From: Methylobacterium oryzae
GTDB lineage: Bacteria > Pseudomonadota > Alphaproteobacteria > Rhizobiales > Beijerinckiaceae
Direction of reading: 5' to 3'
NCBI RefSeq assembly: GCF_021398735.1
Contig: NZ_CP090349.1
Location: 2,551,001 to 2,615,000, forward strand
Length of the DNA: 64,000 bases
In this document: one piece after another, positions 9,080 to 27,931 of the stretch
Position numbering within the stretch: position 1 is the stretch's first letter
How the letters are laid out: each line of letters opens with the position of its first letter
Made by a program: the position numbers and the translations under genes
The notes under the pieces: model-generated
Databases searched by the model: none
Told to the model about the DNA's origin: nothing
The model's input: only the letters and a program-made list of their open reading frames with translations

Positions 9080-9127
9080 TTCATCCGGGCGCCGGTCGCC
9101 CGGCGACACTTCCAGGACGCGACGCTT

Positions 9128-11247: not shown

Positions 11248-11257
11248 GGGCGATCGC

Positions 11258-11286: not shown

Positions 11287-11342
11287 CGTGAACCCGGCGG
11301 TGTCCCTGGGGGTTATGGGGCGGGTCCACGATCGGAAACGCC

Positions 11343-11573: not shown

Positions 11574-11605
11574 GGCGCGGGCGGGCCGCCCGTCGGGGGC
11601 GTTGC

Positions 11606-11962
11606 TCAGATCCGGCCCTCCCTGCGGAGGCTGCCGAAGAAATTGACGACGTCCATCTGGAGCGACCGGTGGCCGAACAGCCGGAGCGGGTAGCCCTCCG
11701 CGGTGCCGTCGCGCAGCTCGATCATCGCCGTCATCGTGTTGTAGCGGAACACCATGCGGCGACCGGCGAAGGTCGCCCAGAGCAGGGGCGGACCGCCATC
11801 CGCGTCCTGCAGCGCGACCGAGCCAGGCTCCGCCTCGGCGAGAACGCCGCCGATCACCGCCAGCGTCACCGGCATGACCTCCTCCAGGGTCTCCTCGGCG
11901 GCGCGCAGCACCGAATCGGCGAAGGCCCGCAGGGTCGCGCCGTCGCTCGTCAGAACCGCCAT
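11606..11962 (-). CDS. Hypothetical protein, 118 aa
   Basis: Not recognised. It is a soluble-looking protein with an N-terminal helix (LRAFADSVLRAAEETLEEV) and a strand-rich second half containing GGPPLLWATFAGRRMVFRYNT. The start at 11962 is preferred over a longer frame because GAGGAG lies just upstream. It faces the opposite way to the ribosomal genes on both sides and converges on the small secreted gene, leaving only 32 bp between them. Confidence 0.55.
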   Translation of the reverse strand: MAVLTSDGATLRAFADSVLRAAEETLEEVMPVTLAVIGGVLAEAEPGSVALQDADGGPPLLWATFAGRRMVFRYNTMTAMIELRDGTAEGYPLRLFGHRSLQMDVVNFFGSLRREGRI

Positions 11963-12212
11963 CTCCGCTCCTCGATCAGATCCCAGGGCGCCCCGACGCG
12001 CGCGTGACGGGGCGAGGCCGTGCCGACCCGTCGTTGACAACGGGCCGCCCGCGCGCTAGCAGGCCCTCCTTCGTCCAACCGAACGATGGTCCGAGGTGCC
12101 CTGTCCAGGGCCGCCCGCGGGCCGCGTCGTCGTTTCACGTGCGCAGGGGCCGGCCTCCACCGGACGCGCGCGACAGCGGCCCGGATCCCCGGGTCCCATA
12201 TGGAGAGTGATC

Positions 12213-12581
12213 GTGGCCCGTATCGCAGGCGTCAACATCCCGACCAACAAGCGCGTCGTCATCGCGCTCCAGTACATCCACGGCATCGGCGCCAAGAAGG
12301 CCGAGGAAATCACCCAGAAGGTGAACATCCCTGCCGAGCGTCGCGTCAACCAGCTGACCGACGCCGAGGTTCTGTCGATCCGCGAGACGATCGATCGCGA
12401 CTATCTCGTCGAGGGCGACCTGCGCCGCGAAGTCTCGATGAACATCAAGCGCCTGATGGATCTCGGCGCCTATCGCGGTCTGCGTCACCGCAAGCAGCTG
12501 CCGGTCCGCGGCCAGCGCACCCACACCAACGCCCGCACCCGCAAGGGCAAGGCGAAGCCGATCGCCGGCAAGAAGAAGTAA
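12213..12581 (+). CDS. rpsM: 30S ribosomal protein S13
   Basis: S13, 122 aa, in the head of the 30S subunit near the P-site t[23 protein letters not shown] at the start and [20 protein letters not shown] near the end are diagnostic. The start is the GTG at 12213 with GGAGAG upstream. It heads the alpha operon, here separated from adk by about 960 bp holding two unrelated small genes. Confidence 0.97.
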
Positions 12582-12594
12582 GTTTTTGGAACTG

Positions 12595-12619
12595 GGAGGC
12601 CGTGCTCCGCTCGGCCTCC
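12595..12619 (+). other. Stem-loop in the rpsM-rpsK spacer
   Basis: GGAGGCCG (12595-12602) pairs with CGGCCTCC (12612-12619) around a 9-nt loop. It lies 14 bp after the rpsM stop in an unusually long (173 bp) spacer for these two genes. It may be an attenuator or processing site; no T tract follows. Confidence 0.45.
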
Positions 12620-12754
12620 TTCCCGTCGCGCCAGGTATCCCGCAACGGGTCCGGCGCCGGCTCGACCGCCCTGCACGGGTGCTCCGGCCAAGTCCCAAAA
12701 AGAATCCCGAGCGCCTGGTGTTACGGGCGTGCCTGAAGGAAGAGTGAGACCAGA

Positions 12755-13144
12755 ATGGCTAAGGAACCGCAACGCGTCCGCCGCCGCGAGCGCAAGAACA
12801 TCGTGTCGGGCGTCGCCCACGTGAACGCCTCGTTCAACAACACGATGATCACCATCACGGACGCGCAGGGCAACACGATCTCGTGGTCGTCCGCCGGTGC
12901 GATGGGCTTCAAGGGTTCGCGCAAGTCGACCCCGTACGCCGCCCAGGTCGCCGCAGAGGATGCTGGCCGCAAGGCCGCCGAGCACGGCATGCGCACCCTC
13001 GAGGTCGAGGTGTCGGGTCCGGGTTCGGGCCGCGAGTCGGCGCTCCGCGCCCTGCAGGCCGCGGGCTTCACGGTGACCTCGATCCGCGACGTCACCTCGA
13101 TCCCGCACAACGGCTGCCGGCCGCGCAAGCGCCGCCGCGTCTGA
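12755..13144 (+). CDS. rpsK: 30S ribosomal protein S11
   Basis: S11, 129 aa, in the 30S platform near the mRNA exit. The stretches [20 protein letters not shown] and [20 protein letters not shown], and the C-terminal [17 protein letters not shown], are diagnostic. The ATG at 12755 follows GGAAGAG. It is followed by a non-ribosomal hydrolase gene before rpoA. Confidence 0.98.
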
Positions 13145-13169
13145 TCGAAGCCTCTTGACGGAGAAGTTC

Positions 13170-14042
13170 ATGACGGGATCGAAGCCGCTTCCGGGCGTGC
13201 TGCGTTGGAACCTCGGGGACCTCACGGTCACCGCGCTCAATGACGGCTGGTTTCAGGCCAGCCTCGATCTCGTCACGGGCATCTCCAAGGAGGAGGCCGG
13301 GCGGCTCCAAGTGGCGGGTTTCCGCACGGAGCAGCCCAAGATCACGCTGAACGCCTTCCTGATCACGGGTCCGGGCCTCAAGCCGACCCTGATCGACACG
13401 GGCTACGGCGACCTCGCCCCGGCACCGACCCTGGGTCGCGCCGGTGCAGCGCTCGCGCTGACCGGCGTCGCGCCGGAGGAGATCGGCACGGTGCTGGTCA
13501 GTCACCTGCACCCCGACCATGTCGGCGGTCTCGTGAAGGACGGCGCGGCGCGCTACCCGAACGCCGAGATCGTGCTGCACGCCGACGAGGCGGCGCACTG
13601 GCTTCCGGACGAGGCCCTGGCCAAGGCGCCGGAGGCCGCGAAGCCCTACTTCGAGGGCGCCCGCAAGTCCCTGGCTCCCTACGCCGGCAAGGTGCGCGAG
13701 CACCGCGGCGGCGAGGTCCTTCCGGGGATCACGGCGGTCCCTCTTCCCGGCCACACGCCGGGCCATTGCGGTTTCCGCATCGTCTCCGGTGGACAGGCGC
13801 TGATGATGTGGACCGACGTGGTGCACCTGCCGGCGATCCAGTTCAAGAACCCGGAGGCCGGCGTCGGCTTCGACGTCGACGGCGACCAAGCGCGGGAGAC
13901 GCGCAAGCGGATCCTGGACGAGGTGGCCCGCGAGCGCACGCTCATCGCCGGCGGCCATCTCGAGTTCCCGGCGCTCGGCTACGTGGATCGGGATGGGGCT
14001 GGCTACAGCTTCGTGCCGGTGCTGTGGGTCGGCGGCGAGTAA
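13170..14042 (+). CDS. Metallo-beta-lactamase-fold hydrolase
   Basis: A 290-aa cytoplasmic MBL-fold hydrolase. The metal-binding HxHxDH motif is seen as [10 protein letters not shown] near residue 112, with further ligands in [11 protein letters not shown], in MWTDVVHL and in AGGHLEF. The substrate is not evident; relatives include quorum-quenching lactonases and other thioester or phosphoester hydrolases. ATG at 13170 has GGAG six bases upstream. It lies 25 bp after rpsK and 109 bp before rpoA on the same strand, so it is probably co-transcribed with the alpha operon. Confidence 0.85.
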
Positions 14043-14151
14043 CGGCGGATACGGATTTCAGGGACCGTTCGGGGCGCCAGGGGGCGGCACCGAGTGGCCG
14101 AAGCGCGGGGACGGGCGTCGCGGATCCCGGGCAAGGACGAGAGGTAGGATC

Positions 14152-15171
14152 GTGGTCATTCAGAAGAATTGGCAGGAACTGATCAAGCCGAACAAGCTGC
14201 AGGTCACGACCGGCGACGACCCGAAGCGGGTCGCCACGGTCGTCGCCGAGCCGCTCGAGCGCGGCTTCGGCACGACGCTGGGCAACGCCCTGCGCCGCGT
14301 GCTCCTGTCGTCGCTCCAGGGCGCGGCCGTGACCTCGGTGCAGATCGACGGCGTGCTGCACGAGTTCTCGTCGATCCCGGGCGTGCGCGAGGACGTCACC
14401 GACATCGTCCTCAACATCAAGACCATCGCGATCCGCTCGCAGACCGACGCGCCCAAGCGCATGACCCTGCGCAAGACCGGCCCGGGCCTCGTCACCGCCG
14501 GTGACATCGGCACGGTCGGCGACATCCAGATCCTGAACCCCGACCTCGTGATCTGCACCCTCGACGACGGCGCCGAGATCCGCATGGAGTTCACGGTCGC
14601 AACCGGCAAGGGCTACGTCCCGGCCGAGCGCAACCGTCCCGAGGACGCGCCGATCGGCCTGATCCCGGTCGACTCGCTGTTCTCGCCGGTCACCAAGGTC
14701 AGCTACCGCGTCGAGACGACCCGCGAGGGCCAGGATCTCGACAAGGACAAGCTGACCATGACGGTCGAGACCAACGGCGCGGTCTCTCCGGAGGACGCGC
14801 TCGCCTACGCGGCGCGCATCATCCAGGACCAGCTGCAGGTCTTCGTGAACTTCGAGGATCCGCGCAAGGAAGAGGCCGCGCCGCTCGCGCCGCAGCTTCC
14901 TTTCAACCCGGCGCTGCTCAAGAAGGTCGACGAGCTGGAGCTGTCGGTCCGCTCGGCGAACTGCCTGAAGAACGACAACATTGTCTACATCGGCGACCTC
15001 ATCCAGAAGTCCGAGGGCGAGATGCTGCGGACCCCGAACTTCGGCCGCAAGTCGCTCAACGAGATCAAGGAAGTGCTCGCCGGCATGGGCCTGCATCTCG
15101 GCATGGACATCCCCGGCTGGCCGCCGGAGAACATCGAGGATCTCGCCAAGCGCTTCGAGGAACACTACTGA
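14152..15171 (+). CDS. rpoA: DNA-directed RNA polymerase subunit alpha
   Basis: RpoA, 339 aa, scaffold for RNA polymerase assembly and target for activators. The N-terminal domain has [20 protein letters not shown] at about residues 30-49 and [14 protein letters not shown]. The C-terminal domain has [20 protein letters not shown] and the helix-turn [20 protein letters not shown]. The start is the GTG at 14152 with GAGG seven bases upstream; the in-frame upstream extension has no family similarity. It precedes rplQ as usual. Confidence 0.98.
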
Positions 15172-15192
15172 GAGGCGAAGCCGCCTCGAGCT

Positions 15193-15225
15193 GAACCGGG
15201 CGGCGCCGCACCGCGCCGCCGGTTC
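15193..15225 (+). terminator. Stem-loop between rpoA and rplQ
   Basis: GAACCGGGCGGCGC (15193-15206) pairs with GCGCCGCCGGTTC (15213-15225) with a single bulged base. It starts 21 bp after the rpoA stop. No T tract follows. It may reduce readthrough into rplQ, which lies 200 bp further on. Confidence 0.5.
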
Positions 15226-15371
15226 GGCCCATCCAGGCCCGGGACCCGCGGCGACGACGCCAAGTCCCGAACGAATCCCGCCGCGGGGTTACGCGGACAT
15301 CAACCGCCCCGTTCCCGGGGCACCCGGCCGTACCGTGGCACGGCGGCCGAGACGAGAAGGAAGCCAGCACC

Positions 15372-15782
15372 ATGCGTCACGCCTACCGCGGCCGCCGTTT
15401 CAACCGCACCGCCGAGCATCGCAAGGCGATGTTCGCCAATATGTCCGCCGCGCTGATCAAGCACGAGCAGATCATCACCACCCTGCCGAAGGCGAAGGAC
15501 CTGCGTCCGGTCGTCGAGAAGCTGATCACGCTGGGCCGCATCGACAGCGTCCACACCCGCCGCCTCGCCATGGCGCAGCTCCGCGACGCCGACATGGTCA
15601 AGAAGCTCTTCACCGTCCTCGGCCCGCGCTACAAGGGCCGTCCGGGCGGCTACTGCCGGATCATGAAGGCGGGCTTCCGCCAGGGCGACAACGCCCCGCT
15701 CGCGGTGATCGAGTTCGTCGACCGCGACGTCGAGGCTCGCGGAAAGGATTCCGGTCCGAGCCAGGTCTCCGAAGCCGCCTGA
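15372..15782 (+). CDS. rplQ: 50S ribosomal protein L17
   Basis: L17, 136 aa, at the peptide exit side of the 50S subunit. [20 protein letters not shown] at the start and the segment [20 protein letters not shown] are diagnostic. AGGAAG lies before the ATG at 15372. It is the last gene of the alpha operon and is followed by a strong terminator. Confidence 0.98.
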
Positions 15783-16194: not shown

Positions 16195-18081
16195 TCAGCC
16201 GACGGGTCCGGCTCCGCCGTCAAGCAGCGTGGCGACGCGGGCCGCGAGGTCCGCGGAGCGGAACGGCTTCGTGAGCACCGGCAGGTCGTCGGGGATCTGC
16301 ATCGCCTCGGCATGTCCGGTAAGGATCAGGACCGGCAGGCGCGGATCGCGCTCGCGGATCTCGGCGGCCAGCTCGATGCCGCTCATGCCGGGCATGGCGA
16401 GGTCGGCGACGACGATGTCGTAGCGGTCCGCCTCGAGGAGCCGGAGCGCGGCCTCGCCGTCGCCGGCTTCCGTGGTGCTGTGGCCGAAGCCGGTGAGGAA
16501 CGAGGCCGTCACGTGGCGCACCTGCGAATCGTCGTCGACGATCAGGACGCGGGCCCGCCGGCCGGCGACCGGGACGGTGCCGGCGGCCTCGGGCGCCTGC
16601 TCGGGCGCCTGATCGGCGAAGGGGAGGGCGAGCTCCACGCGGGTGCCCCGACCGACCACGCTGTCGATCGCCAGCCGGCCCTTGGATTGCTGCGCGAGGC
16701 CGAACACCATGGCGAGGCCGAGCCCGGTGCCCTGGCCGACGGCCTTGGTGGTGAAGAACGGCTCGCAGACCCGGCGCAGGATCTCCTCCGGGATGCCGGT
16801 GCCCTCGTCGGTGACGCTGATGCCGAGATAGGTGCCGTCGGCGATCTCGGGATCGCCGCTGATGGCGAGCCGGCGCGTCGCGACCGTGATCGCCCCCCCG
16901 TCCGGCATGGCGTCGCGGGCGTTGATGCAGAGGTTGAGCACGGCGAGTTCGAGCTGGTCCGGATCGACCTGAACCGCCGGCAGTCCGTCCGCGAGGTCGG
17001 TCCGGACCGTCACGAGGCCGCCGAGGCTGCGTCCGAACAGGTCGCTCATCCCGGAGATCAGGGTGTTCACGTCGACGGCGCGCGCCTGGAGGTCGTGGGC
17101 GCGGCTGAAGCTCAGGAGGCGCTTGGTCAGGGACGCCCCGCGCTCGGCGGCGCCGCGGGCGTTCTCGATCAGGCGCTGGACCCGCGGCTGGTCGGCGACC
17201 TTCGGGCCGGCGAGCTCGAGGCTGCCGAGGATCGCGGTCAGCAGGTTGTTGAAATCGTGCGCGATGCCGCCCGCGAGGGTGCCCAGCGCCTGCATCTTGT
17301 CGGACTGGCGCAGGCGCGCCTCCAGGGTCCGCTGCTCGGTCACGTCGCGCTCGATCGTCGCGAGGTGGCTGATCGCCCCGCCCGCGTCGCGGATCGGCAC
17401 CCGCGTCACGTGGCTCCACTGCTCGGCGCCGGTCGGGCCGTCGCTGATCAGGCTCTCGACCACCGCCCCGGACCGGATCGCGGCCGCGTCCGCCGCCGTC
17501 ACGGGCTCGGCCTTCGGGCCGAGAAGTTCGTCCTCACGCCGCCCGAGGCTGGCGGCGACGTCGTGGCCGAGCAGGGCGGCCTTGCGGCCGTTCAGCCGGA
17601 CGAAGCGGCCCTCCGCGTCCTTGAAGCTGATCGCGTCCTGGGCGTGGTCGAGGAGGCCGCGCAGGAGAGCCCGCTCGGTGGCGAGGTCTCGGCCGAGGCG
17701 GTGGCGCTCGAAGGCCTGCCGGACGGTGGAACGGAGCAGGCCCGCGTCCCAGGGCTTGGTGACGTAGCCGACGATGCCGCCGCGGTTGAGGGCGGCGATC
17801 ACCGCGGTGATGTCGGCGTAGCCGGTCAGCAGGATCGCCTGCGCGTCGTGGAAGCTGCGGGCCTCGGCGAGGAGCGCGTCGCCGGTGAGGCCCGGCATCC
17901 GCTGGTCCGAGAGCACGACGGCGATGTCGGGTTCGGCGCGCAGGATCTCCAGCGCCTCGGCCGGGCGCGAGGTCGTCAGAACCCGGTAGGAATCCTCGAA
18001 CAGGTCCTCCAGGGCGATCAGGATGTCCGGCTCGTCGTCGACGGCCAGGATCGTCCCTACACCTGCCGTACCGTCACTCAT
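16195..18081 (-). CDS. Hybrid histidine kinase, REC-PAS-HisKA-HATPase-REC
   Basis: A 628-aa cytoplasmic kinase with no membrane segment. The N-terminal receiver (residues 10-125) has ILAVDDEPD and the phosphoacceptor in VVLSDQRMPGLTG. A PAS domain (about 140-260) follows, then the H box GTLAGGIAHDFNNLLTAILG, the N box LNLCINARDAMPDGG, the G boxes DEGTGIPEE and GTGLGLAMVFGL, and a C-terminal receiver with VLIVDDDSQ and VVADLAMPGMSG. The H box is of the blind-hybrid HisKA type. The start overlaps the previous gene's stop (ATGA). It is the last gene of the chemosensory operon and a likely output or phosphorelay partner of CheA. Confidence 0.9.
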   Translation of the reverse strand: MSDGTAGVGTILAVDDEPDILIALEDLFEDSYRVLTTSRPAEALEILRAEPDIAVVLSDQRMPGLTGDALLAEARSFHDAQAILLTGYADITAVIAALNRGGIVGYVTKPWDAGLLRSTVRQAFERHRLGRDLATERALLRGLLDHAQDAISFKDAEGRFVRLNGRKAALLGHDVAASLGRREDELLGPKAEPVTAADAAAIRSGAVVESLISDGPTGAEQWSHVTRVPIRDAGGAISHLATIERDVTEQRTLEARLRQSDKMQALGTLAGGIAHDFNNLLTAILGSLELAGPKVADQPRVQRLIENARGAAERGASLTKRLLSFSRAHDLQARAVDVNTLISGMSDLFGRSLGGLVTVRTDLADGLPAVQVDPDQLELAVLNLCINARDAMPDGGAITVATRRLAISGDPEIADGTYLGISVTDEGTGIPEEILRRVCEPFFTTKAVGQGTGLGLAMVFGLAQQSKGRLAIDSVVGRGTRVELALPFADQAPEQAPEAAGTVPVAGRRARVLIVDDDSQVRHVTASFLTGFGHSTTEAGDGEAALRLLEADRYDIVVADLAMPGMSGIELAAEIRERDPRLPVLILTGHAEAMQIPDDLPVLTKPFRSADLAARVATLLDGGAGPVG

Positions 18082-19796
18082 GCACTGGCCGCCTGCCGCG
18101 GAATCCCGATCACGAAGCAGGCTCCCCCACCCGGGGCCGTCTCCACGGTGAGCGAGCCGCTATGCGCTTGAACGACGCTGTAGGCAATCGCAAGACCCAG
18201 GCCCGTGCCGGATCCGACCGGTTTCGTCGTGAAGAACGGCTCGAAGATCTTCTCACGCAGCGTATCCGGGATGCCGGGCCCGGTATCGCTGATGCGAATC
18301 TCGTCGAGTTCGGGGTTCGACTGGGTCGTGATCCGGATCGTGCCGCCCTCCGGCATGGCGTCGGCGGCGTTGCCCAGGATGTTCATCACCACCTGATTGA
18401 GCAGCGCCGGGGTGCAGTGGATCTCGGCGCGGCCCGTGAAGCTGCGCTCCACGGCGATGCGCTCGCCGAGCTTGTGCTGGATCAGCGCGAGCACCGTCTC
18501 GATCGCCTCCGGCACGTTGACCAGGGCGCGCTCGCCCTCGTCGAGGCGCGAGAACTTCCGGAGGTTCAGCACCAGATCCTGGATGCGGGTCAGCCCCATC
18601 CGCATCGAGCCGACCCGCTGCCGGGCCTTGTCGATGGCGCGGGTGGCGGCCTCCGGAGCGGCGCCCGGCAACTCGCCGAGCAGGCGCTCGACGGTGCCCT
18701 GGTGGGCCAGGATGAAGGCCAGGGGATTGTTGATCTCGTGGGCGATCCCCGCCACCAGCTCGCCGAGCGAGGCCATCTTGGCGGCCTGGACGAGCTTGGA
18801 CTGCGCCTCGGTGAGCTGGCGGTTGGCGTCGGCGAGGTCGCGGTTGGCCCGCTCCAGGGCGTCGGCGAGGCCCGCTCGGGCCTCGGCCGCGTCGGCCTCC
18901 GCGCGGGCGCGCTCCACCGCCCGCTCGCGCTCGCCGAACTGGCCGGCGATGCGCCGGTCGTCCTCCTCCAGGAGCCGCCGCCGCACGAAGCCGCGGACCC
19001 GCAGGGCCAGGACCTCGGCGTCGGTCTTCGAGACCACGTCGTCGGCGCCGGCCGCGTAGGCTTCGACGAGGAAGTCCTTGGCGGGATCGCTGCCGGCGAT
19101 GCCGACGAGGTGGAAGCCCGCGCCGGCCGCCTGTCCCGAGCGCCGCTGGCTGATCGCCCGGCACAGGGCGAGGCCGTCATAGGCGTGCCCCAGGAGATCG
19201 ACCGTCACGCAGTCGAAGGCCCCGTCGCCGGCGGCCGCGTCCAGGGCGGCCAGGGCCGCCTCCGGCCCGTCGACGCTCGCCACGTGGTGGCCGTCCTGGC
19301 CCATCACGCCGGCGAGGAAGGTCCGGTAGGTGGCGCTGCCGTCGATCACCAGGACCCGCCCGCGCCGGAACGCGGCGGCGCCCGGTCCCTCACCGTCGGT
19401 CGTCGGCCGGCGCTCGCGCAGCAGGGCGCGGATGCGCAGGATCATCAGGTCGCGGTCGGCGGATTTCGGCAGGTAGGCGTCGGCGCCGCTCTCCAGACCC
19501 TGGCGCTCGCCGCCGCTGCCGCCGGTCAGCATCAGGACCGGCAGGGCCCGGGTGCGCAGCGACAGGCGCATCTGCCGGATCAGCTCGTCGCCGTTCATGC
19601 CCGGCAGGTGGTAATCGGCCACCACGAGGTCGGGCTGGCTGCGATTGAGGTGATCGAGGGCGGTCTCGGCGGAGGCGCAGCGCTCCACCGCGAAGCCGTG
19701 CGCCTCCAGCAGCAGGCGCAGTTCCAGGGCCTGCGTCTCCGAATCCTCGACCAGCAGGATCCGGGCCGGCACCTCCGCCGGGCCGGCCTCGCTCAC
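18078..19796 (-). CDS. Histidine kinase with two N-terminal receivers (REC-REC-HisKA-HATPase)
   Basis: A 572-aa soluble kinase. Receiver 1 (about 13-130) has [10 protein letters not shown] and [12 protein letters not shown]. Receiver 2 (about 148-270) has [10 protein letters not shown] and an Asp in [12 protein letters not shown], with a looser surround. A coiled coil rich in Ala, Arg and Glu leads to the H box [20 protein letters not shown] and the ATPase boxes [24 protein letters not shown] and [12 protein letters not shown]. The GTG start at 19796 overlaps the cheB stop (GTGA). Two receivers ahead of the kinase fit a protein that takes phosphate from CheA and then acts as a kinase. The substrate is unknown. 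Confidence 0.88.
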
Positions 19797-20860
19797 GGCC
19801 GCGCCCCCGCATCCACGAGGCGCAGGACGTGGTCGGCGACGCGGTCGAGGGGCAGGACGGCGCGGGCGGCCCCGAGACGCACGGCCGCCGCCGGCATGCC
19901 GTAGACCACGGCGGTGCTCTCGTGCTCGGCCACGGTCTGGGCGCCGGCCCTGTGCATGTCGGCGAGGCCCAGGGCCCCGTCCTCGCCCATGCCGGTGAGC
20001 AGCACGCCGATGCCGGAGGGGCCGGATTGCCGGGCCATGGACCGGAACAGCACGGTGGCGGCCGGGCGCTGGCCGGAGACCGGCGCGGAATCGATCACCC
20101 GCAGGATCCGGCCGGAGCCGATCTCCAAGTGGCGGTCGCCCGGGGCCACGTAGACCCGGCCGGGTTCGGCGCGCTCGCCGTCCTGGGCGAGGGAGACCGG
20201 GAGGGCGACGACGCTTTCGAGCCAGCTGGCGAACCCGTCCATGAAGGCCGCGCCCATGTGCTGGACGACCAGGACCGGCAGCGGGAAGTCCTTGGGCAGG
20301 GCGCCGATCACCCGCGCCAGCGCCGGGGGACCGCCCGTCGAGGCGGCGATGCCCAGGAGGCTCGGGGCCTGCCCGGACAGGTCGGCCAGCGGCGCCTGGG
20401 GCGCGACGGCGGAGCGGCCGGCCCACTCGGTGCCGATCGGCCGGCGGCGGATGACCGGAACCTGGGCCATGATCCGCAGCTGCGTGCAGATCTCGCCGGC
20501 CACGCCCTCGTAGCCGGCATGGGTCGTGGCCACGGGCTTCTCGACGACCGACAGGGCCCCGGCCCGGAGCGCGTTCATCGAGATGCGCAGCGAGTTATCC
20601 TCGACCGAATCCGCCACCACGACGATCGGCGTCGGGTGCTCGGCCATGATCCGGCGGGTCGTCTCCAGCCCGTCGATCCCCGGCAGGCGGATGTCCATCG
20701 AGATCACGTCCGGCCGCACGGTCCGGAGCTTGTCGAGGGCCTCCTCGCCGGAGGCGACCGCGGCCACGAGCTCGAGGCGGGGATCGCGGGAGACGATGTG
20801 GCGCAGCAGCTCGCGCACCACGAGGCTGTCCTCCACGAGCATCACACGGACGGGGGTCAT
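19793..20860 (-). CDS. cheB: Chemotaxis-type protein-glutamate methylesterase CheB
   Basis: CheB, 355 aa, removes methyl esters from (and deamidates) the MCP for adaptation. The receiver domain has MLVEDSLVVREL and Asp56 in VISMDIRLPGIDG. The esterase domain shows the catalytic triad Ser174 (GIAASTGGPPA), His201 (VVQHMG) and Asp294 (TGMGEDGA). It overlaps cheA upstream (ATGA) and the next kinase downstream (GTGA). It corresponds to WspF in the Wsp arrangement. Confidence 0.94.
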   Translation of the reverse strand: MTPVRVMLVEDSLVVRELLRHIVSRDPRLELVAAVASGEEALDKLRTVRPDVISMDIRLPGIDGLETTRRIMAEHPTPIVVVADSVEDNSLRISMNALRAGALSVVEKPVATTHAGYEGVAGEICTQLRIMAQVPVIRRRPIGTEWAGRSAVAPQAPLADLSGQAPSLLGIAASTGGPPALARVIGALPKDFPLPVLVVQHMGAAFMDGFASWLESVVALPVSLAQDGERAEPGRVYVAPGDRHLEIGSGRILRVIDSAPVSGQRPAATVLFRSMARQSGPSGIGVLLTGMGEDGALGLADMHRAGAQTVAEHESTAVVYGMPAAAVRLGAARAVLPLDRVADHVLRLVDAGARP

Positions 20861-23151
20861 AGGAGCTGCCCGATCGTATCCAGCAGCTGGCGCTGGTCGA
20901 ACTTCTGCTTGGTCAGGTAGGCGTCGGCGCCGAGATCCAGGCCCCGGGCGACGTCGGCGGCATCCCCGCGGGAGGTCATCAGGATCGCCGGGAGCCGGGC
21001 GAAGCGCTCGTCGGCCCGCAGGGCCTTCAGGAGGCCGAACCCGTCGAGGCGCGGCATCTCCACGTCGGCGAGCACCAGATTCACGGGCTCGATCTCGGCG
21101 CGCAGCCGGTCGAGGGCGTCCTGCCCGTCGACGCAGACGACCACGCGGTAGCCGGCGGCTTCCAAGATTCCCTTCTCCAGAGTCCGGGTGGTGATCGAAT
21201 CGTCGACGACCAGGATGGTCGCGCGCGCGGACGCGGCCGCCGCGGCGTGAGTCGTCGAACGTGGAGCCGGCGCCATCGTTCCGAGCGCGCCGCCCGTTGT
21301 CCCGGCCTGGGCGCGCGAAGCGAGCCCCTCGGGGTCGAGGACCAGCACCGGCACGTCCCCGTTCAGCACCGCCGTGCCGGCGATCAGACCCGGATCGGCG
21401 CCGAAATCCGGCGCGGGCAGGACCAGGAACGGACGGACGTCGTGCAGGCGGTCGACCGCCAGGGCCAGACGGCCGCCGCCGGTCCGCAGGACGACGGCGG
21501 TCAGCGTGCCGGGATCGGCCGGGTCGGCGACCTGTCCGAGGATCGCGGCGAGGTCCGTCACCGGGTGGCTCGTCGCGGCGTCCCCGTCACCGAGGCGCAC
21601 GATCGTCCGGCCCATGGCGACCGGCAGGTCGTCGCGCCGCAGGCGCAGGAGGCGCTCCACGGCGCCCCCGGGGAGGGCGTAGCTGCGCCCGGCCGCCTCG
21701 ACCAGCAGCAGACTGCGCCGGGCCGCTGAGAGCGGCAGGCTGAAGATCAGGGCGGTGCCGGCCGGGTCGCGCGGCTCCAGGCGGACGCTGCCCATGAGCT
21801 GGCGGGCGGCGTCCGCGGCCACCGAGAGGCCGTAGCCGCGCCCCGACAGGGTGTCGACCGCCTCGGCGGTGGAGAAGCCGGGCTCGAACACGAGGCGCAG
21901 CAGGGTGTCGGGTTCGGCCGCGGAAGCGGGGCCGAGGAGGCCGCGCTCGCGGGCCGCCGCCTCGATCCGGGCGAGGTCGGGGCCGGGCCCGTCGTCGAAC
22001 ACGGTAACATGCAGGCGGGCGCCGCGCACCGCGACCTCCAGCCCGAGGCCCAGGGCCTCCGGCTTGCCGGCCGCGCGCCGCACCTCCGGCGCCTGCCAGC
22101 CGTGGCTGAGGGCGTTGCGCAGGGCGTGGAGCAGCGGATCCTTCAGCGCCTGCAGCGTGCCGCGCTCCACCGGCAGGTCGAGGCCCCGCAACGTGAGATC
22201 GACCTCGCGGCCCTGCTCCCGGGCGGTCTCGCGCAGCGACCGGGCGAGGGGGGCCAGGACGGTCTCGGCCGGGACCAGGGCGAGGCGCTCGGCGGCGGCG
22301 CGGACGCGGGTCGCGGCGCCCTCGACCGCGCTGGTCGCGGAGGCCTGGCGCCGCGACAGGTCCGCGGCCTCCCGGGCGAAGGCGCCCGCGCGCGCCGCGA
22401 GGGCGCGCCACTCGGGCCGCTCCGCGCCGGCCCCGGCCGCGAGGGCCTCGGCGCCGACGCGCAGGTCGCGGGCCAGGCGGGCGAGCCGGGCGAGGCCGTC
22501 GGCCGCGGGCGCCTGGCCGGCCAGGGTGCTGGCGAGATCGTGACTCGCCCGGGCCAGCGCCTCGACGGCCTCCGCCGGCACCCGCAGGATCGCCGCGGAG
22601 GCCTCCGGCGGCTCGGAGCCGGGTTTCGGCGCGGGGTCGGCCTGTGTCGGCGCGGCGGTCGCGGCCGGCGGGGATGCCGGCGCGGCGGGGGGCCCCGGTG
22701 GCGGGCTCGGACTCGGATCCGGCAGCGGGGCGGGGGGCGGTGCGGCGGGTGGTGCGGGTTGTGCCGGCAGCGGCGTCTCGCCCGGGAGCCGGAGGACGTG
22801 GCCGAGGGCCGCCAGGGCGTCGGCCGGCATGTCCGGACCGGACCCGTCGGTGAGGCCGGCGACGTAGGACTCGATCCGGTCGAGGGCGAGGTGGACGGCG
22901 TTGGCCGCCTCGCGGTCGAGGGCGGTGGCGCCGGTGCGCACGCCCTCGAACAGCGTCTCGAGACGGTGGGCCACCGCCTCGACCGCCGGGAGGTCGACGG
23001 CGCGGGAGGCGCCCTTCAGGCTGTGGGCGCGGCGGAAGACGTCGTTCCAGTCCGGCGTGGCGCTGCCGAGCGCCCCGCGGATCGCCGCGACGTGCTCCCG
23101 GTGCTCGACGTCGAAGGCGGCGAGCAGGAGCTTGCGGATATCCTCGGCCAA
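20857..23151 (-). CDS. cheA: Chemotaxis-type histidine kinase CheA fused to a receiver
   Basis: A 764-aa CheA-REC hybrid. The HPt domain carries His43 in RRAHSLKGASRAV. A Pro/Ala-rich linker (about residues 145-190) follows, then the dimer and ATPase domains (LLHALRNALSHGW, VFDDGPGPDL and GRGYGLSVAADAARQLMG), a CheW-like domain, and a C-terminal receiver with TILVVDDSITTR and LVLADVEMPRLDG. No separate CheY-binding P2 domain is evident, as in WspE. The only suitable start is TTG at 23151, since the mcp stop lies 13 bp upstream. Weak ribosome binding could keep kinase levels low. Confidence 0.92.
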   Translation of the reverse strand: MAEDIRKLLLAAFDVEHREHVAAIRGALGSATPDWNDVFRRAHSLKGASRAVDLPAVEAVAHRLETLFEGVRTGATALDREAANAVHLALDRIESYVAGLTDGSGPDMPADALAALGHVLRLPGETPLPAQPAPPAAPPPAPLPDPSPSPPPGPPAAPASPPAATAAPTQADPAPKPGSEPPEASAAILRVPAEAVEALARASHDLASTLAGQAPAADGLARLARLARDLRVGAEALAAGAGAERPEWRALAARAGAFAREAADLSRRQASATSAVEGAATRVRAAAERLALVPAETVLAPLARSLRETAREQGREVDLTLRGLDLPVERGTLQALKDPLLHALRNALSHGWQAPEVRRAAGKPEALGLGLEVAVRGARLHVTVFDDGPGPDLARIEAAARERGLLGPASAAEPDTLLRLVFEPGFSTAEAVDTLSGRGYGLSVAADAARQLMGSVRLEPRDPAGTALIFSLPLSAARRSLLLVEAAGRSYALPGGAVERLLRLRRDDLPVAMGRTIVRLGDGDAATSHPVTDLAAILGQVADPADPGTLTAVVLRTGGGRLALAVDRLHDVRPFLVLPAPDFGADPGLIAGTAVLNGDVPVLVLDPEGLASRAQAGTTGGALGTMAPAPRSTTHAAAAASARATILVVDDSITTRTLEKGILEAAGYRVVVCVDGQDALDRLRAEIEPVNLVLADVEMPRLDGFGLLKALRADERFARLPAILMTSRGDAADVARGLDLGADAYLTKQKFDQRQLLDTIGQLL

Positions 23152-23164
23152 CGGGGCGCCCGCC

Positions 23165-24838
23165 TCAGTGCCGGTATCGTTCGGCCAGGGCCATGAGGGC
23201 CTGGGCGAGCTCGGTGAGGTTGGCGGAGGCGGCCTCGACCTGCCGCGTGCCGGCCGCGGTCTGCTGGCTGGCCTGGCGGATGTTCTGCAGCGCCCCCATC
23301 ACCTGCTCGATGCCCAGCTGCTGCTGGTTGGTCGAGGCCACGATCTGCTGGAACGTCTGCACGTTCTCCTCCACCCGCGCGGTGATCTCCTCGATCGTGC
23401 GCTGCGTCGTGTCCGAGCGCGTCTTGCCCGCCGCCGCGCGCTTGACCGCCTCCTCGGTCAGCATCACCGACGTGTTGATGCCCCGCTGGATCTCGCCCAG
23501 GATCCCCCGCACCTGCCCCGTGGCCGCCTTGGCCTGGTCGGCCAGGAGCTTCATCTCCGAGGCCACCACCGAGAAGCTGCGCCCGCTCTCGCCGGCCGCG
23601 GCCGCCTCGATGGCGGCGTTCAGCGCCAGCAGGTGCGTGCGCTCCGAGATGTCGTTGACCGTCTCGATGATGTCGCCGATCGTCTGGGTCTTCTCCGACA
23701 GGCTGACGATGTTGCCGGCCACCGCCTCCGCCTGCTCGCGGATCGCGTCCATGGCCTTGGCGGTGTCGGACACCGCGCGCAGCCCCTGGCGCGAGGTCTG
23801 CGCGGTGGCCTGGGCGGTGGCGATCACCTCGGTGGCGCGCTTGGAGATCTGCGCCCCCGAATGGGTGATCTCGTCGACCGTGGCGGCGGTCTCCTGCACG
23901 GCGGCGAACTGCTGCTCGACCGAGGCGGCCTGCTCCTGCGCCGAGGCGCGGATCTCGGCCGCGGCCGCGTTCAGGTCCGCCGTCGCCGCCCGGTTCGTCC
24001 GCGCCAGGTCCGACAGACCCGAGACCATCGTGTTCAGCGTCGTGCTCAGACGGCCGATCTCGTCGCGCCCGCCCGCCGCCAGCTGGCCAGACAGGTCGCC
24101 CTCGCCGACGCGGCCGACGAAAGCCATGACCGTCTCGAGCGGCCGCACCACCGCGCGGCTGATCAGCCACGTGATCAGGACCGCCAGCAGCACCGCGGCG
24201 GCCAGGGTCAGGTAGATCGAGAGGCGCGAGCGCTCGTAGACCTCCTGCGCGGCGCGCTGTCCCAGCGCCATGCCGCCGTCGAGCTGCGAGCGGAGGTTCT
24301 TGATCCCCTCGAGGAAGGGTGCCTGCAGCCGCGCGATCTCCGCGTTGCGGGCCTCGACCGCCGCGACGTCCTGCTGGGCGATGGCGGCGAACTGCGCCTC
24401 GCCCTGCGCCCTGACCTCGCGGAACGAGCCCTGGACCGCGGTCGCCGCCGCGGCGATGCGGTCCCAGGCCGCGACGCGCTCGGCGGATACGACCTGCGTC
24501 CGGTACTGGGTGGCGAGCTGGATCGTCGTGGCGAGCCGGTTCTCGACCTGGGCCGCGGTCTGGCGCCAGGTCGCCAGGGTGTCGCCGGCCTGGGTCGCGC
24601 GCCCCTGGGCCTGCATCAGCATCGTGATCACGGCCGTGCGGCGCAGGAGACCGAGGTCGCGCGCGTCGTTCCCGAGATCGTCGAGCTGGCGCAGGATCGT
24701 CATGTCCCGCCGGACGATCGCGTCGGTCGTGTCGCGCACGGCGCCGATCTGCTCCAGGGCGTAGAGGCCGAGCGCCACCACCACCACCGTGATGGCGAAG
24801 AAGCCGAGGAGGATGCGTTTTCCGATCGAGAGCGACAC
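23165..24838 (-). CDS. Methyl-accepting chemotaxis protein (WspA-like)
   Basis: A 557-aa inner-membrane receptor. One transmembrane helix lies at residues 9-30 (ILLGFFAITVVVVALGLYAL) and another near 205-227. Between them is a roughly 170-residue, mostly helical periplasmic domain of four-helix-bundle type. A HAMP domain follows (RAVVRPLETVMAFVGRVGEGD), then a signalling hairpin with the tip IGDIIETVNDISERTHLLAL (the usual tip has QTNLLAL). There is no C-terminal CheR-tethering pentapeptide; the protein ends AERYRH. It is encoded between cheW and cheA and is the probable sensor of the system. Confidence 0.92.
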   Translation of the reverse strand: MSLSIGKRILLGFFAITVVVVALGLYALEQIGAVRDTTDAIVRRDMTILRQLDDLGNDARDLGLLRRTAVITMLMQAQGRATQAGDTLATWRQTAAQVENRLATTIQLATQYRTQVVSAERVAAWDRIAAAATAVQGSFREVRAQGEAQFAAIAQQDVAAVEARNAEIARLQAPFLEGIKNLRSQLDGGMALGQRAAQEVYERSRLSIYLTLAAAVLLAVLITWLISRAVVRPLETVMAFVGRVGEGDLSGQLAAGGRDEIGRLSTTLNTMVSGLSDLARTNRAATADLNAAAAEIRASAQEQAASVEQQFAAVQETAATVDEITHSGAQISKRATEVIATAQATAQTSRQGLRAVSDTAKAMDAIREQAEAVAGNIVSLSEKTQTIGDIIETVNDISERTHLLALNAAIEAAAAGESGRSFSVVASEMKLLADQAKAATGQVRGILGEIQRGINTSVMLTEEAVKRAAAGKTRSDTTQRTIEEITARVEENVQTFQQIVASTNQQQLGIEQVMGALQNIRQASQQTAAGTRQVEAASANLTELAQALMALAERYRH

Positions 24839-24874
24839 GGGCGGGGATGGCTCCGGTTGGGGCAGGCGGCCCGG

Positions 24875-25447
24875 TCAGGGCAGCGCGCGGCGCAGGAGGC
24901 GGGGGAGGTCGATGACGACGAAGTCGGGACGGCCGTCGCCCGCCGCCCCGGAGGCCGGGGCATAGACCGAGGCGGCCTCGTTGCCCAAGCGGTCGGGATC
25001 GGCCGCCCCGGCGCCGGCCGCGGCGACCGCGCCAGGGGCCCGGGCGATGCCCAGGACCCGGTCCACCGCGAGGGCGAGGGGCTGGGGGTGGACGCCGCGC
25101 AGCACGATCATGTGGGCCGCCGCGTCGGCGTCGGACGCGGGATCCGGCCGGCCGAGGGCCCGGGCGAGGCTGAGCACGCCGACGATCCGCCCGGACAGGG
25201 CGACGAGACCGTCCAGCGCCGGCACCGCCCCGGGCATCGGCGTGGCGGGGCGCGACGGCAGGACCTGGGCGACGGCCGCCAGCGGCACGCCGTAGCGCTC
25301 GCCGCCGCAGGCGCAGACGAGGTGATCGACGCCCGAATCGGTCGCGGCCGCCGCGGCACCGCGCCGGGCGAGGGCGGCGGCGCGCTCGGCGCGCAGGTCC
25401 CGCTCCGGCCGCGGACGGCCGCCCTGTGCACTCGGGCCTGCGCCCAT
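24875..25447 (-). CDS. cheW: CheW-like coupling protein (second cheW of the operon)
   Basis: A 190-aa coupling protein. After a charged, Arg/Ala-rich N-terminal tail of about 40 residues, the CheW fold runs from VDHLVCACGGERYGVPLAAV to the C-terminus. It includes VPALDGLVALSGRIVGVLSL and PLALAVDRVLGI. The ATG at 25447 has AGGAGG five bases upstream and shares a base with the cheR stop (TGATG). It corresponds to WspD, the CheW that follows the TPR methyltransferase. Confidence 0.88.
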   Translation of the reverse strand: MGAGPSAQGGRPRPERDLRAERAAALARRGAAAAATDSGVDHLVCACGGERYGVPLAAVAQVLPSRPATPMPGAVPALDGLVALSGRIVGVLSLARALGRPDPASDADAAAHMIVLRGVHPQPLALAVDRVLGIARAPGAVAAAGAGAADPDRLGNEAASVYAPASGAAGDGRPDFVVIDLPRLLRRALP

Positions 25448-26979
25448 CAGGACCTCCTGCTGCCGGCGCCGCCGAGCGCGGCGCGGGCCGCGGCCGCGCT
25501 GGCCGCGATCTCGCCCGCGGAGGCGCCGTCGCCCTCGGGCAGCGCCGTGTCCGGCCCGAGGGCTTGACTCAAGGCGACGGCGTTGTCGAGGGCGCGGAGC
25601 GCCTCGTGCGGCCGTCGCAGCGCGATCAGCAGCAGGCCGAGGTGGTAGTGGGCCATCACGAAACCGCGGTCGAGGTAGAGCGCGGCCCGCAGCGCCCGCT
25701 CGGCCTCGGCGTCGCGTCCGAGGGTGCGGGCCAGGAGACCCTCGTAGAAGCGCAGGGCGGTGTCGGTCGGATCGCGGTCGAGGGCGCCCCGCAGCGCCCG
25801 CCAGGCCGCTCCGGTCTCGCCGGAATCGGCCAGCGCGCGGATCCGGTCGAGGTCGACGGCGTCCTCCTCTTCCGGCCGGTCCTCCCGGGTCTCGGGCGCT
25901 GCGGGAGCCGGACCGGTGCCGGGTGCGGCGACCGGGTCCGGGGAGGGAACGGCCGCGGCGTCGGCCTCTGCGGCCCCGGACTGGCCCGGGCCAGGATCCG
26001 CCGGGGGCGGCTCCGTCGCCTGTCGCGCCGGAGGGACGGGGTCCGGTGCGGGCGCACCGGACAGGTCGACCGATGGCGCGACCGGCGGCGCCTCGGCGCG
26101 CGGTCGGTAGGCCACGGTCCCCGGCAGGCTGACGGCGTCGAGGAAGCTCGCGAAGGCGGGACTCGGCTCGGCGTGGCCGAGGAGCAGCCAGCCCTCCGGC
26201 CGCAACCTTCGGCCCAGCCCGCGCACCACCGCGGCGACCGTCCGGGCATCGAAGTAGATCAGCACGTTCCGGCAGAGGATCAGGTCGAAGGGCTCGCCCT
26301 GCGGCGGCCCCGGCTCGACGAGGCTCAGCAGGTTGCCGCGCTCGAACCGGACCGGACCGCGGTATTCGGGCCGGAGGGCGTAGCCGCCCTCGCGCCGGAT
26401 GCCCGGCGCGGGCGGCAGCCGGGTGAAGTAGCGGAGCCGGTCCTCCGGCGGCATGGTCCGGAGCGCCCAGCGGCCGTACTCGGCGGCGCGGGCCGTGGCG
26501 AGCGCCTCGACGCTGATGTCGGTGCCGAGGATCGCCACCCGCCACTCGGGCAGGGCGTCGCCGAGCAGCTCGTGCACCAGGATCGCCAGGGAATAGGCCT
26601 CGGCCCCGGTGGAGCAGCCCGCGCTCCAGATCCGCAGGACGCGCTCGGACGCCCGCGCCGCGATCAGCGCCGGCAGGATCGTCGCGCGCAGCGCGCTGAA
26701 CTGCTCGGCGTAGCGGAAGAAGAACGTCTCGCCGACGGTGATCTCAGCTTCCAGCCGGGCCCATTCCGCCTCGCCTTCCGCGCCGCTCGACAGGAGGGCC
26801 GCGTAGGCGGCGCAATCGGCCACGGCGGCGGCGCGGAACCGGCGGTGCAGCCGCTCGATCAGCAGCTCGTCCTTGTCGGTGTAGTAGTGGTGGCCGGTGC
26901 GCGCGATGATCCGCGCCTTGAGCGGCGCGTAGGCGGGATCGGCACTCAGGTCGGGACGGGGATTCCCCGGTCGGGCCAT
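25447..26979 (-). CDS. cheR: CheR-type methyltransferase with TPR C-terminus
   Basis: A 510-aa MCP methyltransferase. The CheR N-domain has ITVGETFFFRYAEQF near residue 80. The SAM-binding site is VLRIWSAGCSTGAEAYSLAI at about 114-133, followed by AILGTDISVEAL, the segment FDLILCRNVLIYFDAR, and LRPEGWLLLGHAEPS. A Pro/Ala-rich linker (about 300-365) leads to tetratricopeptide-like repeats (DAEAERALRAALYLDRGFVM and MAHYHLGLLLIALRRPHEAL). CheR-TPR fusions are typical of Wsp/Che3-type systems (WspC), where the TPR can replace pentapeptide tethering. Confidence 0.92.
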   Translation of the reverse strand: MARPGNPRPDLSADPAYAPLKARIIARTGHHYYTDKDELLIERLHRRFRAAAVADCAAYAALLSSGAEGEAEWARLEAEITVGETFFFRYAEQFSALRATILPALIAARASERVLRIWSAGCSTGAEAYSLAILVHELLGDALPEWRVAILGTDISVEALATARAAEYGRWALRTMPPEDRLRYFTRLPPAPGIRREGGYALRPEYRGPVRFERGNLLSLVEPGPPQGEPFDLILCRNVLIYFDARTVAAVVRGLGRRLRPEGWLLLGHAEPSPAFASFLDAVSLPGTVAYRPRAEAPPVAPSVDLSGAPAPDPVPPARQATEPPPADPGPGQSGAAEADAAAVPSPDPVAAPGTGPAPAAPETREDRPEEEDAVDLDRIRALADSGETGAAWRALRGALDRDPTDTALRFYEGLLARTLGRDAEAERALRAALYLDRGFVMAHYHLGLLLIALRRPHEALRALDNAVALSQALGPDTALPEGDGASAGEIAASAAAARAALGGAGSRRS

Positions 26980-26986
26980 CGCGCGG

Positions 26987-27487
26987 TCAGACGGCGTGCG
27001 GCAGCGCGGCGAGACGTTCGGCGGCCGCCCGGGCCAGGGCGTCGACGCGGGCCCGTTCCTGCACGGTCAGGAGGCGCTCCGGCGCCAGAGCGTGGACGAG
27101 GCGCTCGCCGAGGACGAGCTCGGCCGCGACGCAGCCGTTGAGCGTGTCGGCCGCCTCGGCCGGCCGGACCGCGGAATCCGGGACGGTCGCGAGGTCCGCC
27201 ACGCGATCGACGAGGTACGCGACGGCCTCGCCCTGCATCAGCGCGAGATGGGCGTAGAGACCGGGCGTCGCGCCGGCCGGGCGCAGGCCGAGCAGCGCCG
27301 CGAGGTCGACGACCGGGACCGGCGTGCCGCCGAGATTGAGGAATCCGGTGAGCCAGCTGCCGGAAGCGGGCGGCGCGTGCAGATCCGGCAGCGGCAGGAT
27401 CTCGGCGACCGCGCCGCGGGGCAGGGCGCAGGCCGTGCCTGCGACATCCAGCAGGAGATAGGCCGAACCGCTGCTGGCCACCGCCAC
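26987..27487 (-). CDS. cheW: CheW-like coupling protein (first gene of the chemosensory operon)
   Basis: A 166-aa CheW-fold protein corresponding to WspB. It has SAYLLLDVAGTACALPRGAV at the start, then SGSWLTGFLNLGGTPVPVVD, and VAYLVDRVADL near residue 90. The start is the GTG at 27487, with GGGGAG just upstream. It is the promoter-proximal gene and is separated from cheR by 7 bp. The 200-bp divergent region with the small secreted gene at 27689 should hold the operon promoter. Confidence 0.86.
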   Translation of the reverse strand: MAVASSGSAYLLLDVAGTACALPRGAVAEILPLPDLHAPPASGSWLTGFLNLGGTPVPVVDLAALLGLRPAGATPGLYAHLALMQGEAVAYLVDRVADLATVPDSAVRPAEAADTLNGCVAAELVLGERLVHALAPERLLTVQERARVDALARAAAERLAALPHAV

Positions 27488-27688
27488 CCGCTCCCCTGTT
27501 GCTCGGTCGCGGCCGGGCCGGGACGGGTCGCGACATAGGCCGAGTTAACGCTGCCGGCAATTGTGCGCCGCACGGGCGCGATGACGCGGAACCAAGTCTC
27601 GCCTGAGCCGCTTATTTTCCGACGCAGCGGCAACGCGCCTGACGAGGCGCGGCGCTTTGCCTGCGCCGGTCTACGCCAGGGATTGACG

Positions 27689-27931
27689 ATGAGGAAACTT
27701 CTGTTGGCCGCCGCGTCGCTGACGCTCCTCGCGGGCTCCGCCTACGCCCAGGGCAACTCGCCCTACAACGCCTCGGGCGCGCAGGCCGGCGGCCCGCGCG
27801 GCGGCCTGGAGCGCGCCGGCGAGGCGGCCGCGATGGAGCAGGGAGCCGCTCCGGCCGCGCGTCCGATGATGCGCAAGCGCATGAAGCACAAGCGGATGAA
27901 GCATCATCGCCGGATGCGCCACCACATGTGA
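27689..27931 (+). CDS. Small secreted protein with His/Met/Lys/Arg-rich tail, 80 aa
   Basis: The family is not recognised. A signal peptide (residues 1-20, MRKLLLAAASLTLLAGSAYA) is followed by a Gly/Ala-rich linker and a tail from about residue 59 that is dense in Met, Lys, Arg and His (for example MKHKRMKHHRRMRHHM). The tail suggests metal or polyanion binding in the periplasm. It is transcribed away from the chemosensory operon and ends at a strong terminator. Confidence 0.65.
   Translation: MRKLLLAAASLTLLAGSAYAQGNSPYNASGAQAGGPRGGLERAGEAAAMEQGAAPAARPMMRKRMKHKRMKHHRRMRHHM

Follow-up and report, generated by a model that had tools for sequence, protein, structure and literature searches.

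What does a chemosensory array control when its gene cluster has no CheY and ends in two histidine kinases (HKs)? This question is raised by a block of eight leftward genes in a 64,000-nucleotide stretch of Methylobacterium oryzae DNA (the window; NCBI RefSeq assembly GCF_021398735.1, contig NZ_CP090349.1, positions 2,551,001 to 2,615,000 of the forward strand). By homology with the Che3 system of Rhodospirillum centenum, we consider it likely that this cassette encodes a Che3-type pathway in which CheA phosphorylates the first receiver domain (REC1) of the kinase HK1 and probably, in parallel, that of the second kinase, HK2, thereby switching the two kinases. Positions are given in window numbering unless a locus is named; genomes and loci used for comparison are numbered with G and L, respectively.

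Open reading frames (ORFs) and Pfam matches bear out the gene order reported by the initial annotation, cheW1, cheR, cheW2, mcp, cheA-REC, cheB, HK1 and HK2, with all eight genes on the minus strand inside 16195-27487 (Table 1). Its statement that nearly all of them overlap was too strong, as overlaps occur at four of the seven junctions, by 1 base (TGATG) between cheR and cheW2 and by 4 bases each at cheA/cheB, cheB/HK1 and HK1/HK2; the gaps measure 7 bases at cheW1/cheR, 36 at cheW2/mcp and 13 at mcp/cheA. By Pfam, the first four products carry CheW, CheR, CheW, and HAMP plus MCPsignal, the last being a methyl-accepting chemotaxis protein (MCP), whose segment between the hydrophobic stretches gave no Pfam match. 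CheA is composed of Hpt, HATPase_c, CheW and Response_reg, CheB of Response_reg and CheB_methylest, HK1 of two Response_reg domains, HisKA and HATPase_c, and HK2 of Response_reg, PAS_4, HisKA, HATPase_c and Response_reg. The start of HK1 is a GTG at 19796, the 782-aa ORF called there being an extension through cheB.

Comparison across genomes indicates that the eight-gene block is one unit, stable in many Alphaproteobacteria. A collection of species genomes scanned with the HK1 alignment yielded 326 stretches encoding a relative; the 80 best of these were analysed, so that all order counts in these best 80 of 326 loci presuppose the presence of HK1. In every one of the 80, from genera that include Methylobacterium, Microvirga, Roseomonas-type bacteria and Gluconacetobacter, cheB, HK1 and HK2 are consecutive, which argues that the kinases belong to the chemosensory unit, and the persistence of the block across many genera disfavours a chance grouping. 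The complete eight-gene order was detected in 56 of the 80 loci. Among the incomplete ones, 15 begin less than 600 bases from the locus end and are cut, cheW1 was undetected in 5 and cheW2 in 3, and one is split (L130, Methylobacterium sp. Leaf118, 6673-13542), with cheA-cheB-HK1-HK2 alone and the mcp gene, at 72% identity, on another contig; altogether cheW1 went undetected in 5 uncut and 2 cut loci. Within the genus, 11 of the 12 congeners have an HK1 match at 77-98% identity; in the remaining one, G012, the match is split into stretches of 67 and 72%. The comparative check likewise upholds the linkage of kinases and che genes assumed in the initial annotation, the order being the same in all 14 stretches from the 12 congeners and two distant genomes, Rhodoligotrophos (G016) and Iodidimonas (G059), with all eight genes in 13 of them and one congener (G011) whose contig ends inside cheA. 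The HK1 of G016 is identical to the recorded HK1 of Rhodoligotrophos appendicifer. When the class was sampled evenly, HK1 was matched at E 1e-60 in just 2 of 142 genomes, the window's genome among them, and the distribution of the cassette is therefore patchy. A CheA-REC match at E 1e-100 was found in 10 genomes of a sample of 385, two candidates per genome being scored; HK1 and an HK2-type kinase lie beside the core in five of these ten (G000, G008, G059, G353 and G374, in the last of which the pair is upstream), while the other five (G060, G080, G117, G187 and G195) have no such pair, the contig of G080 stopping soon after the core.

The closest system that we found is Che3 of R. centenum. 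Our search covered 59 genomes of the family of the Niveispirillum-like genome G195, which we take to be the Azospirillaceae, and CheA was matched at E 1e-80 in 46 of them and at below 1e-150 in 26. The cluster of genome G405 reads 135-aa receiver-cheW-cheR-cheW-mcp-cheA-cheB-kinase, and the published residues D54, A191 and H453 of CheS3 and H49 and D663 of CheA3 fall at exact positions in it, with no other offset tried that fits. Because of these five residues the cluster is taken as R. centenum Che3; D64 of its receiver agrees with CheY3 as well, yet one other offset also fits. Like the cassette, this cluster has the core order cheW-cheR-cheW-mcp-cheA(REC)-cheB followed by a REC-REC protein, CheS3 occupying the slot of HK1, and in both systems the kinase after cheB has an intact REC1 and a degenerate REC2. 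Identities to the window proteins are 51% for CheB, 50% for the signalling part of the MCP, 42% for CheA (483 residues), 37% for CheR and, across the regions that align, 40 and 36% for the two CheW proteins. CheS3 aligns with HK1 over residues 12-330 of the latter (38.6% identity, 350 columns, E 1e-34), with REC1 54% and the linker 56% identical, and the alignment ends before the kinase core. In three respects the two systems differ. The core of CheS3 is of the HWE type by Pfam, whereas that of HK1 is HisKA without a PAS domain; R. centenum has the single-domain CheY3, whereas the cassette lacks cheY; and R. centenum Che3 has no counterpart of HK2, the second kinase being the addition of the cassette. 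CheS3 is described with a PAS domain (PMC3868531), which Pfam did not detect at E 1e-4. The cassette is a relative of R. centenum Che3 with the kinase parts exchanged, probably a Che3-type member of the alternative cellular function (ACF) class.

Published experiments on R. centenum provide a model for the cassette. Che3 of R. centenum, consisting of CheA3, CheS3 and CheY3, controls cyst formation, the receiver of CheA3 drains phosphate, and the D663A form of CheA3 visibly phosphorylates REC1 of CheS3 (PMC3868531). REC1 mutants and kinase mutants of CheS3 have opposite phenotypes, and phosphorylation of REC1 is interpreted as inhibitory, apparently turning CheS3 off, while CheY3 is phosphorylated by CheS3 and not by CheA3 (PMC3868531). 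The Che3/CrdS-CrdA pathway of Myxococcus xanthus, as described in PMC3868531, resembles the cassette in that a CheA-type pathway modulates a separate kinase-regulator pair, but differs in that its CheA serves as a phosphatase of the regulator, CrdA. For a chemotaxis-type kinase that governs a second kinase by way of a receiver, the published case that we located is R. centenum Che3 (PMC3868531).

The sites that such a pathway would use were surveyed in the window and 94 loci, giving 95 rows, some genomes being represented twice; 93 rows have all four proteins and reduce to 58 at 90% identity. The five receiver residues of REC1 in HK1 are intact in 95 of 95 rows. REC1 of HK2, a domain that played no part in choosing the loci, retains the acid pair, Asp and Lys in all 95 and Thr in 94, with Ser in the remaining one. 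Of 93 CheA rows, 90 have the Hpt histidine and 3 show a gap at that place, and the CheA receiver residues are kept in 93 of 93; in CheB the five residues checked, from the catalytic site and the receiver, are kept in all 95. The histidines and ATP boxes of both kinases are intact, and in CheA one G1 position is an exception. The second receiver of HK1 presents a different picture, its phospho-site being D in 61 rows, N in 26 and another residue in 8, with S or T at the T/S position in 11 of 95 and D or E as the second acid in 29 of 95. The earlier reading of HK1 as REC-REC-HK is thus correct as to its two Pfam receiver domains but leaves one usable receiver, REC2 being degenerate. The C-terminal REC2 of HK2 is absent from 3 of 95 rows (L083, L106 and L108) and also from L171. 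The reading frame of HK1 has no internal stop in any of the 95 extracted sequences; a genome search flagged one stop within the HK1 match of the four congeners G003, G004, G006 and G008, where the extracted HK1 had none, and tblastn alignments crossed a stop in 10 cheR, 4 HK2, 2 cheB and 2 cheW1 rows.

The absence of CheY noted earlier extends beyond the eight genes: up to 2.5 kb from the cassette, a receiver model detected no free receiver ORF in any of the 80 loci, 15 of them cut upstream, and its 8 raw matches were the cassettes' own cheA. Applied to 12 Azospirillaceae loci as a control, this model does detect a small receiver gene upstream of cheW in 6, one of the six, CheY3, having itself been in the model, and Pfam confirms all six, two of them, CheY3 included, slightly below its cut-off. 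The output of the cassette probably leaves via a protein encoded elsewhere.

In the pathway that we propose, the receptor, the two CheW proteins and CheA-REC would form the sensory unit, and CheR and CheB would adjust it, as their families suggest. Autophosphorylated CheA would either lose its phosphate to its own C-terminal receiver, which would act as a sink, or hand it on. Transfer to REC1 of HK1 is expected because HK1 and CheS3 are homologous in their receivers, and transfer to REC1 of HK2, which is conserved and linked, would probably run in parallel. Phosphorylation of REC1 would switch the attached kinase, most likely by inhibition as proposed for CheS3, and REC2 of HK1 may serve as a structural or ligand-binding pseudo-receiver, that of CheS3 reportedly binding nucleotide. 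The kinases would in turn phosphorylate at least one response regulator encoded elsewhere, HK2 doing so either directly or by way of its C-terminal receiver and an Hpt protein.

Several observations weigh against this pathway. The proposal, already made in the initial annotation, that CheA phosphorylates the N-terminal receivers of both kinases is favoured by intact receivers, by linkage and by the CheA3-CheS3 precedent, but that precedent holds for the D663A form only, wild-type CheA3 having given no detectable transfer to REC1 of CheS3 (PMC3868531). REC2 of HK1, taken alone, has no BLAST match in CheS3 at E 1e-3, and the kinase core of HK1 has no significant match there either, for which reason the inhibitory sign may not carry over. 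Since R. centenum Che3 has no counterpart of HK2, the argument for control of this kinase is drawn from linkage and conservation. Two motifs of REC1 in HK1 served as scan patterns, and its perfect conservation is therefore partly selected for. In L192, L194 and L200, as judged from sequence, the first receiver of a related REC-REC protein looks degenerate instead of the second. Finally, 15 of the 80 loci are truncated on the upstream side, and a receiver gene there could be missed.

The REC-REC proteins of these and other related clusters show what may stand behind similar receivers. The effector behind HK1-type receivers is HisKA in the cassette and HWE in R. centenum, L197 and L199. In L195 an HK1-like protein of 987 aa after cheB (12600-15563, plus strand) has the composition REC-REC-HisKA-HATPase-REC-Hpt, both of its N-terminal receivers looking intact, whereas L192, L194 and L200 encode a REC-REC protein of 255-266 residues without a kinase, after which a hybrid kinase has a gene of its own. 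REC1 is 52-58% identical where the kinase core falls to 23% (L195) or is unmatched (CheS3). In L204 a REC-PAS-GAF-GGDEF-EAL protein is encoded directly after cheB (6071-8635, minus strand), its REC 53% and its PAS 36% identical to those of HK2. L204 and L173 have HK1 and an HK2-like kinase paired upstream, the CheA of both belonging to another clade, and in these HK2-like kinases REC1 (46-48%) is better preserved than the kinase core. We tentatively speculate that a modular rule underlies these arrangements, although the odds are somewhat against it: receivers addressed by CheA would stay constant, REC1-REC2-linker in HK1 and CheS3 and REC-PAS in HK2, but would be combined with exchangeable effectors (HisKA, HWE, no kinase or GGDEF-EAL), one array would set two kinases, and REC1 and REC2 would together form a coincidence switch. 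If this is true, HK1 would join the array signal, through REC1, to a second, possibly nucleotide, signal through REC2, and Methylobacterium, Microvirga and acetic acid bacteria would possess such a switch, acting on a stress or developmental programme.

A different reading of the same genes is a serial relay, in which the phosphate of CheA, once on the N-terminal receivers, moves on into a kinase or is handed by HK1 to one of the HK2 receivers, forming one chain through three tiers. HK1 lacks a C-terminal acceptor and has no linked free receiver, the adjacent HK2 offers two intact receivers, and the sister protein in L195 fuses REC-REC-HisKA-HATPase-REC-Hpt in a single chain, all of which would suit such a chain. 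A covariation analysis of the kinase His regions against the receivers, calculated on the 93 loci reduced to 58, scored all donor-receiver pairs alike; for the His region of HK1 the share of strong covariation was greatest with REC1 of HK2, the differences being small. However, a receiver at the N-terminus of a kinase usually signals to that kinase rather than donating phosphate, and the C-terminal REC2 of HK2 is dispensed with in the three rows given above. In addition, the R. centenum study detected no passage of phosphate from the kinase histidine of CheS3 to its REC1 and reads REC1 phosphorylation as inhibitory (PMC3868531). For these two reasons a switch appears better supported than a linear relay, and the three-tier relay put forward in the initial annotation is an unlikely, though conceivable, account.

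The other label given to this locus, Wsp-like, is not sustained by the CheA tree. This tree comprises 29 sequences in groups defined by gene order before the tree was seen, and its root was placed by choice on the rows in Wsp order; the residue composition of the window's row is unusual, and no named Pseudomonas WspE is among the rows. The 13 cassette rows form one group (support 100/98) and, together with eight Azospirillaceae rows including R. centenum, a group of 21 (100/100), the eight alone not being one clade. The three Wsp-order rows stand apart, and a grouping of Wsp-order clusters with the cassette is rejected (approximately unbiased test, p 9e-12). The Wsp pathway shares with the cassette two CheW proteins, CheR, CheA-REC, CheB and one MCP, but its mcp gene comes first, followed by cheW-cheR-cheW-cheA-cheB, whereas mcp is fourth in the cassette. 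In the Wsp-order clusters found, the output is REC-GGDEF (L163) or REC-SpoIIE (L165 and L174), whereas the eight genes of the cassette include no GGDEF. The two REC-SpoIIE genes, at 6392-7543 (minus strand) of L165 and 11813-12958 (plus strand) of L174, come from G059 and G187, which belong to one genus, and G059 holds both a Wsp-order REC-SpoIIE cluster and a two-kinase cassette.

A Wsp variant ending in cyclic di-GMP (c-di-GMP), whose kinases would act on a diguanylate cyclase or phosphodiesterase regulator encoded elsewhere, is less probable still than the relay. Related cores do adjoin REC-EAL (L162) or the L204 protein with its HK2-like REC and PAS domains, but Pfam finds no c-di-GMP gene among the eight, the L162 kinase is not the counterpart of HK2, and the tree rejects a common group with Wsp. 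Two candidates were discarded in this connection. REC-EAL as a universal output is not supported for this genus, because the L162 protein is matched full-length in G016, G059 and G080 but by its EAL part only in the window's genus (nine genomes, the window's included), where the matches listed start at query residue 114 or later. The L162 kinase is no orthologue of HK2, since its best matches in G000, G008, G016, G059 and G353 are other kinases, HK2 ranking 11th in G000. Least probable of all is that the kinases merely share the operon, with signals of their own and common transcription but no control by CheA, because, although HK2 has its own PAS domain, the linkage is kept across distant genera and recurs rearranged for HK1 and an HK2-like kinase, REC1 is preserved where the core has diverged or is unmatched, and CheS3, homologous to HK1 in its receivers, uses CheA (PMC3868531).

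The Che3-type switch also has to be placed among published outputs. The initial annotation expected such clusters to end in WspR or an NtrC-type regulator, but about 40% of the response regulators in cheR clusters with tetratricopeptide repeats (cheR-TPR clusters) carry a histidine-kinase module (PMC3447774), so that kinase outputs are common and already published. ACF-class clusters of this kind (PMC3447774) resemble the cassette in having multidomain REC-HK proteins as output. For the TPR-fused CheR previously named there are matches to CheR and to TPR-like repeats, but all of the latter fall under the Pfam curated cut-offs (TPR_2, 25.5 against 27 bits; TPR_8, 20.7 against 25.7), and taken alone the TPR call is weak for that reason. 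Searches of the open-access literature found no paper on this eight-gene block, and the main text of PMC3447774 names neither Methylobacterium nor Gluconacetobacter and, in the portion available, does not describe a two-kinase eight-gene block. Che3-like wiring with other kinase cores and with two kinases would be a stable gene block in many Alphaproteobacteria, including tractable plant-associated and acetic acid bacteria. Exact residues are now offered for testing, which opens the questions of how one array governs two kinases and what non-motility arrays regulate.

Table 1. Features of the chemosensory cassette in window coordinates.
Feature	Position	Strand	Remarks
cheW1	26987..27487	-	166 aa, GTG start; Pfam CheW 67 bits
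cheR, weak C-terminal TPR-like repeats	25447..26979	-	510 aa; Pfam CheR 145 bits
cheW2	24875..25447	-	190 aa, ATG overlaps cheR stop; Pfam CheW 65.5 bits
mcp, membrane receptor	23165..24838	-	557 aa; two hydrophobic segments (from sequence), HAMP, MCP signalling domain
cheA-REC	20857..23151	-	764 aa, TTG start; Pfam
CheA Hpt	~22867-23127	-	Pfam
CheA HATPase	~21727-22140	-	Pfam
CheA CheW	~21310-21711	-	Pfam
CheA REC	~20872-21216	-	Pfam
cheB, methylesterase with receiver	19793..20860	-	355 aa; Pfam
HK1, REC1-REC2-linker-HisKA-HATPase kinase	18078..19796	-	572 aa; Pfam
HK1 REC1, predicted CheA target, Asp61 (= CheS3 Asp54)	19431..19760	-	54% identical to CheS3 REC1, 105 residues
HK1 REC2, degenerate pseudo-receiver	18972..19361	-	site residues across 95 rows
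HK1 HisKA and HATPase kinase core, His353	18093..18767	-	His, N-box, G1 and G2 positions in 95/95 rows
HK2, REC1-PAS-HisKA-HATPase-REC2 hybrid kinase	16195..18081	-	628 aa; Pfam
HK2 REC1, second predicted CheA target, Asp59	17707..18051	-	residue conservation
HK2 C-terminal REC2, Asp560	16234..16548	-	missing in some lineages
Possible operon promoter, TTGCCG-16-CTATGT	27533..27560	-	inferred from alignment

The surroundings agree with the earlier statement that no motility gene is nearby, none being found among the Pfam-matched neighbours between about 8.9 and 35.8 kb, a few short ORFs left out. These neighbours are secY, adk, the genes for S13 and S11, a metallo-beta-lactamase-fold gene, rpoA, the L17 gene and genes for a DeoR-type regulator, an FAD oxidoreductase, an FGGY kinase, an MIP channel, a radical SAM protein, a polyketide-cyclase fold and CinA. 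CheW domains occur at three further sites in the genome, near 0.84, 5.69 and 5.91 Mb of the main contig, and the block is therefore not its sole chemosensory system. No conserved flanking regulator was seen among ten flank proteins from nine loci, eight downstream and one upstream, which comprise a solute-binding protein, HslV- and HslU-type proteins, GatZ/PfkB, an HAD hydrolase, PrpD, one unmatched protein, HslV again, an unrelated hybrid kinase (L072, upstream) and another MCP (L088). A second set, of ten proteins encoded upstream in ten loci, consists of a TPR protein, an FAA hydrolase, a copper amine oxidase, a spore photoproduct lyase, an alpha/beta hydrolase, a weak MarR match, a histidine phosphatase and three unmatched proteins. 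The flanking genes thus vary by lineage, except for HslVU-type genes common to the two acetic acid bacteria checked, where HslV- and HslU-type genes directly follow the cassette (L092, 13866-15781; L104, 14020-15863; plus strand).

Upstream of the cassette, the TTGC...CTAT block of the possible promoter is repeated in close relatives in an alignment of 12 upstream sequences. On the plus strand, GGAAC-N16-CGCT at 27588-27612, upstream of a divergent 82-aa ORF (27683-27931), lies in a block kept in 7 of the 12 aligned regions; it is, we presume, one base off the EcfG general-stress promoter consensus GGAAC-N16-CGTT. The metallo-beta-lactamase-fold gene mentioned above (13155-14042, plus strand) is situated between rpsK (S11) and rpoA, within the alpha ribosomal operon, and gene calls place an ORF of equal length (295 aa) at the corresponding position in L099.

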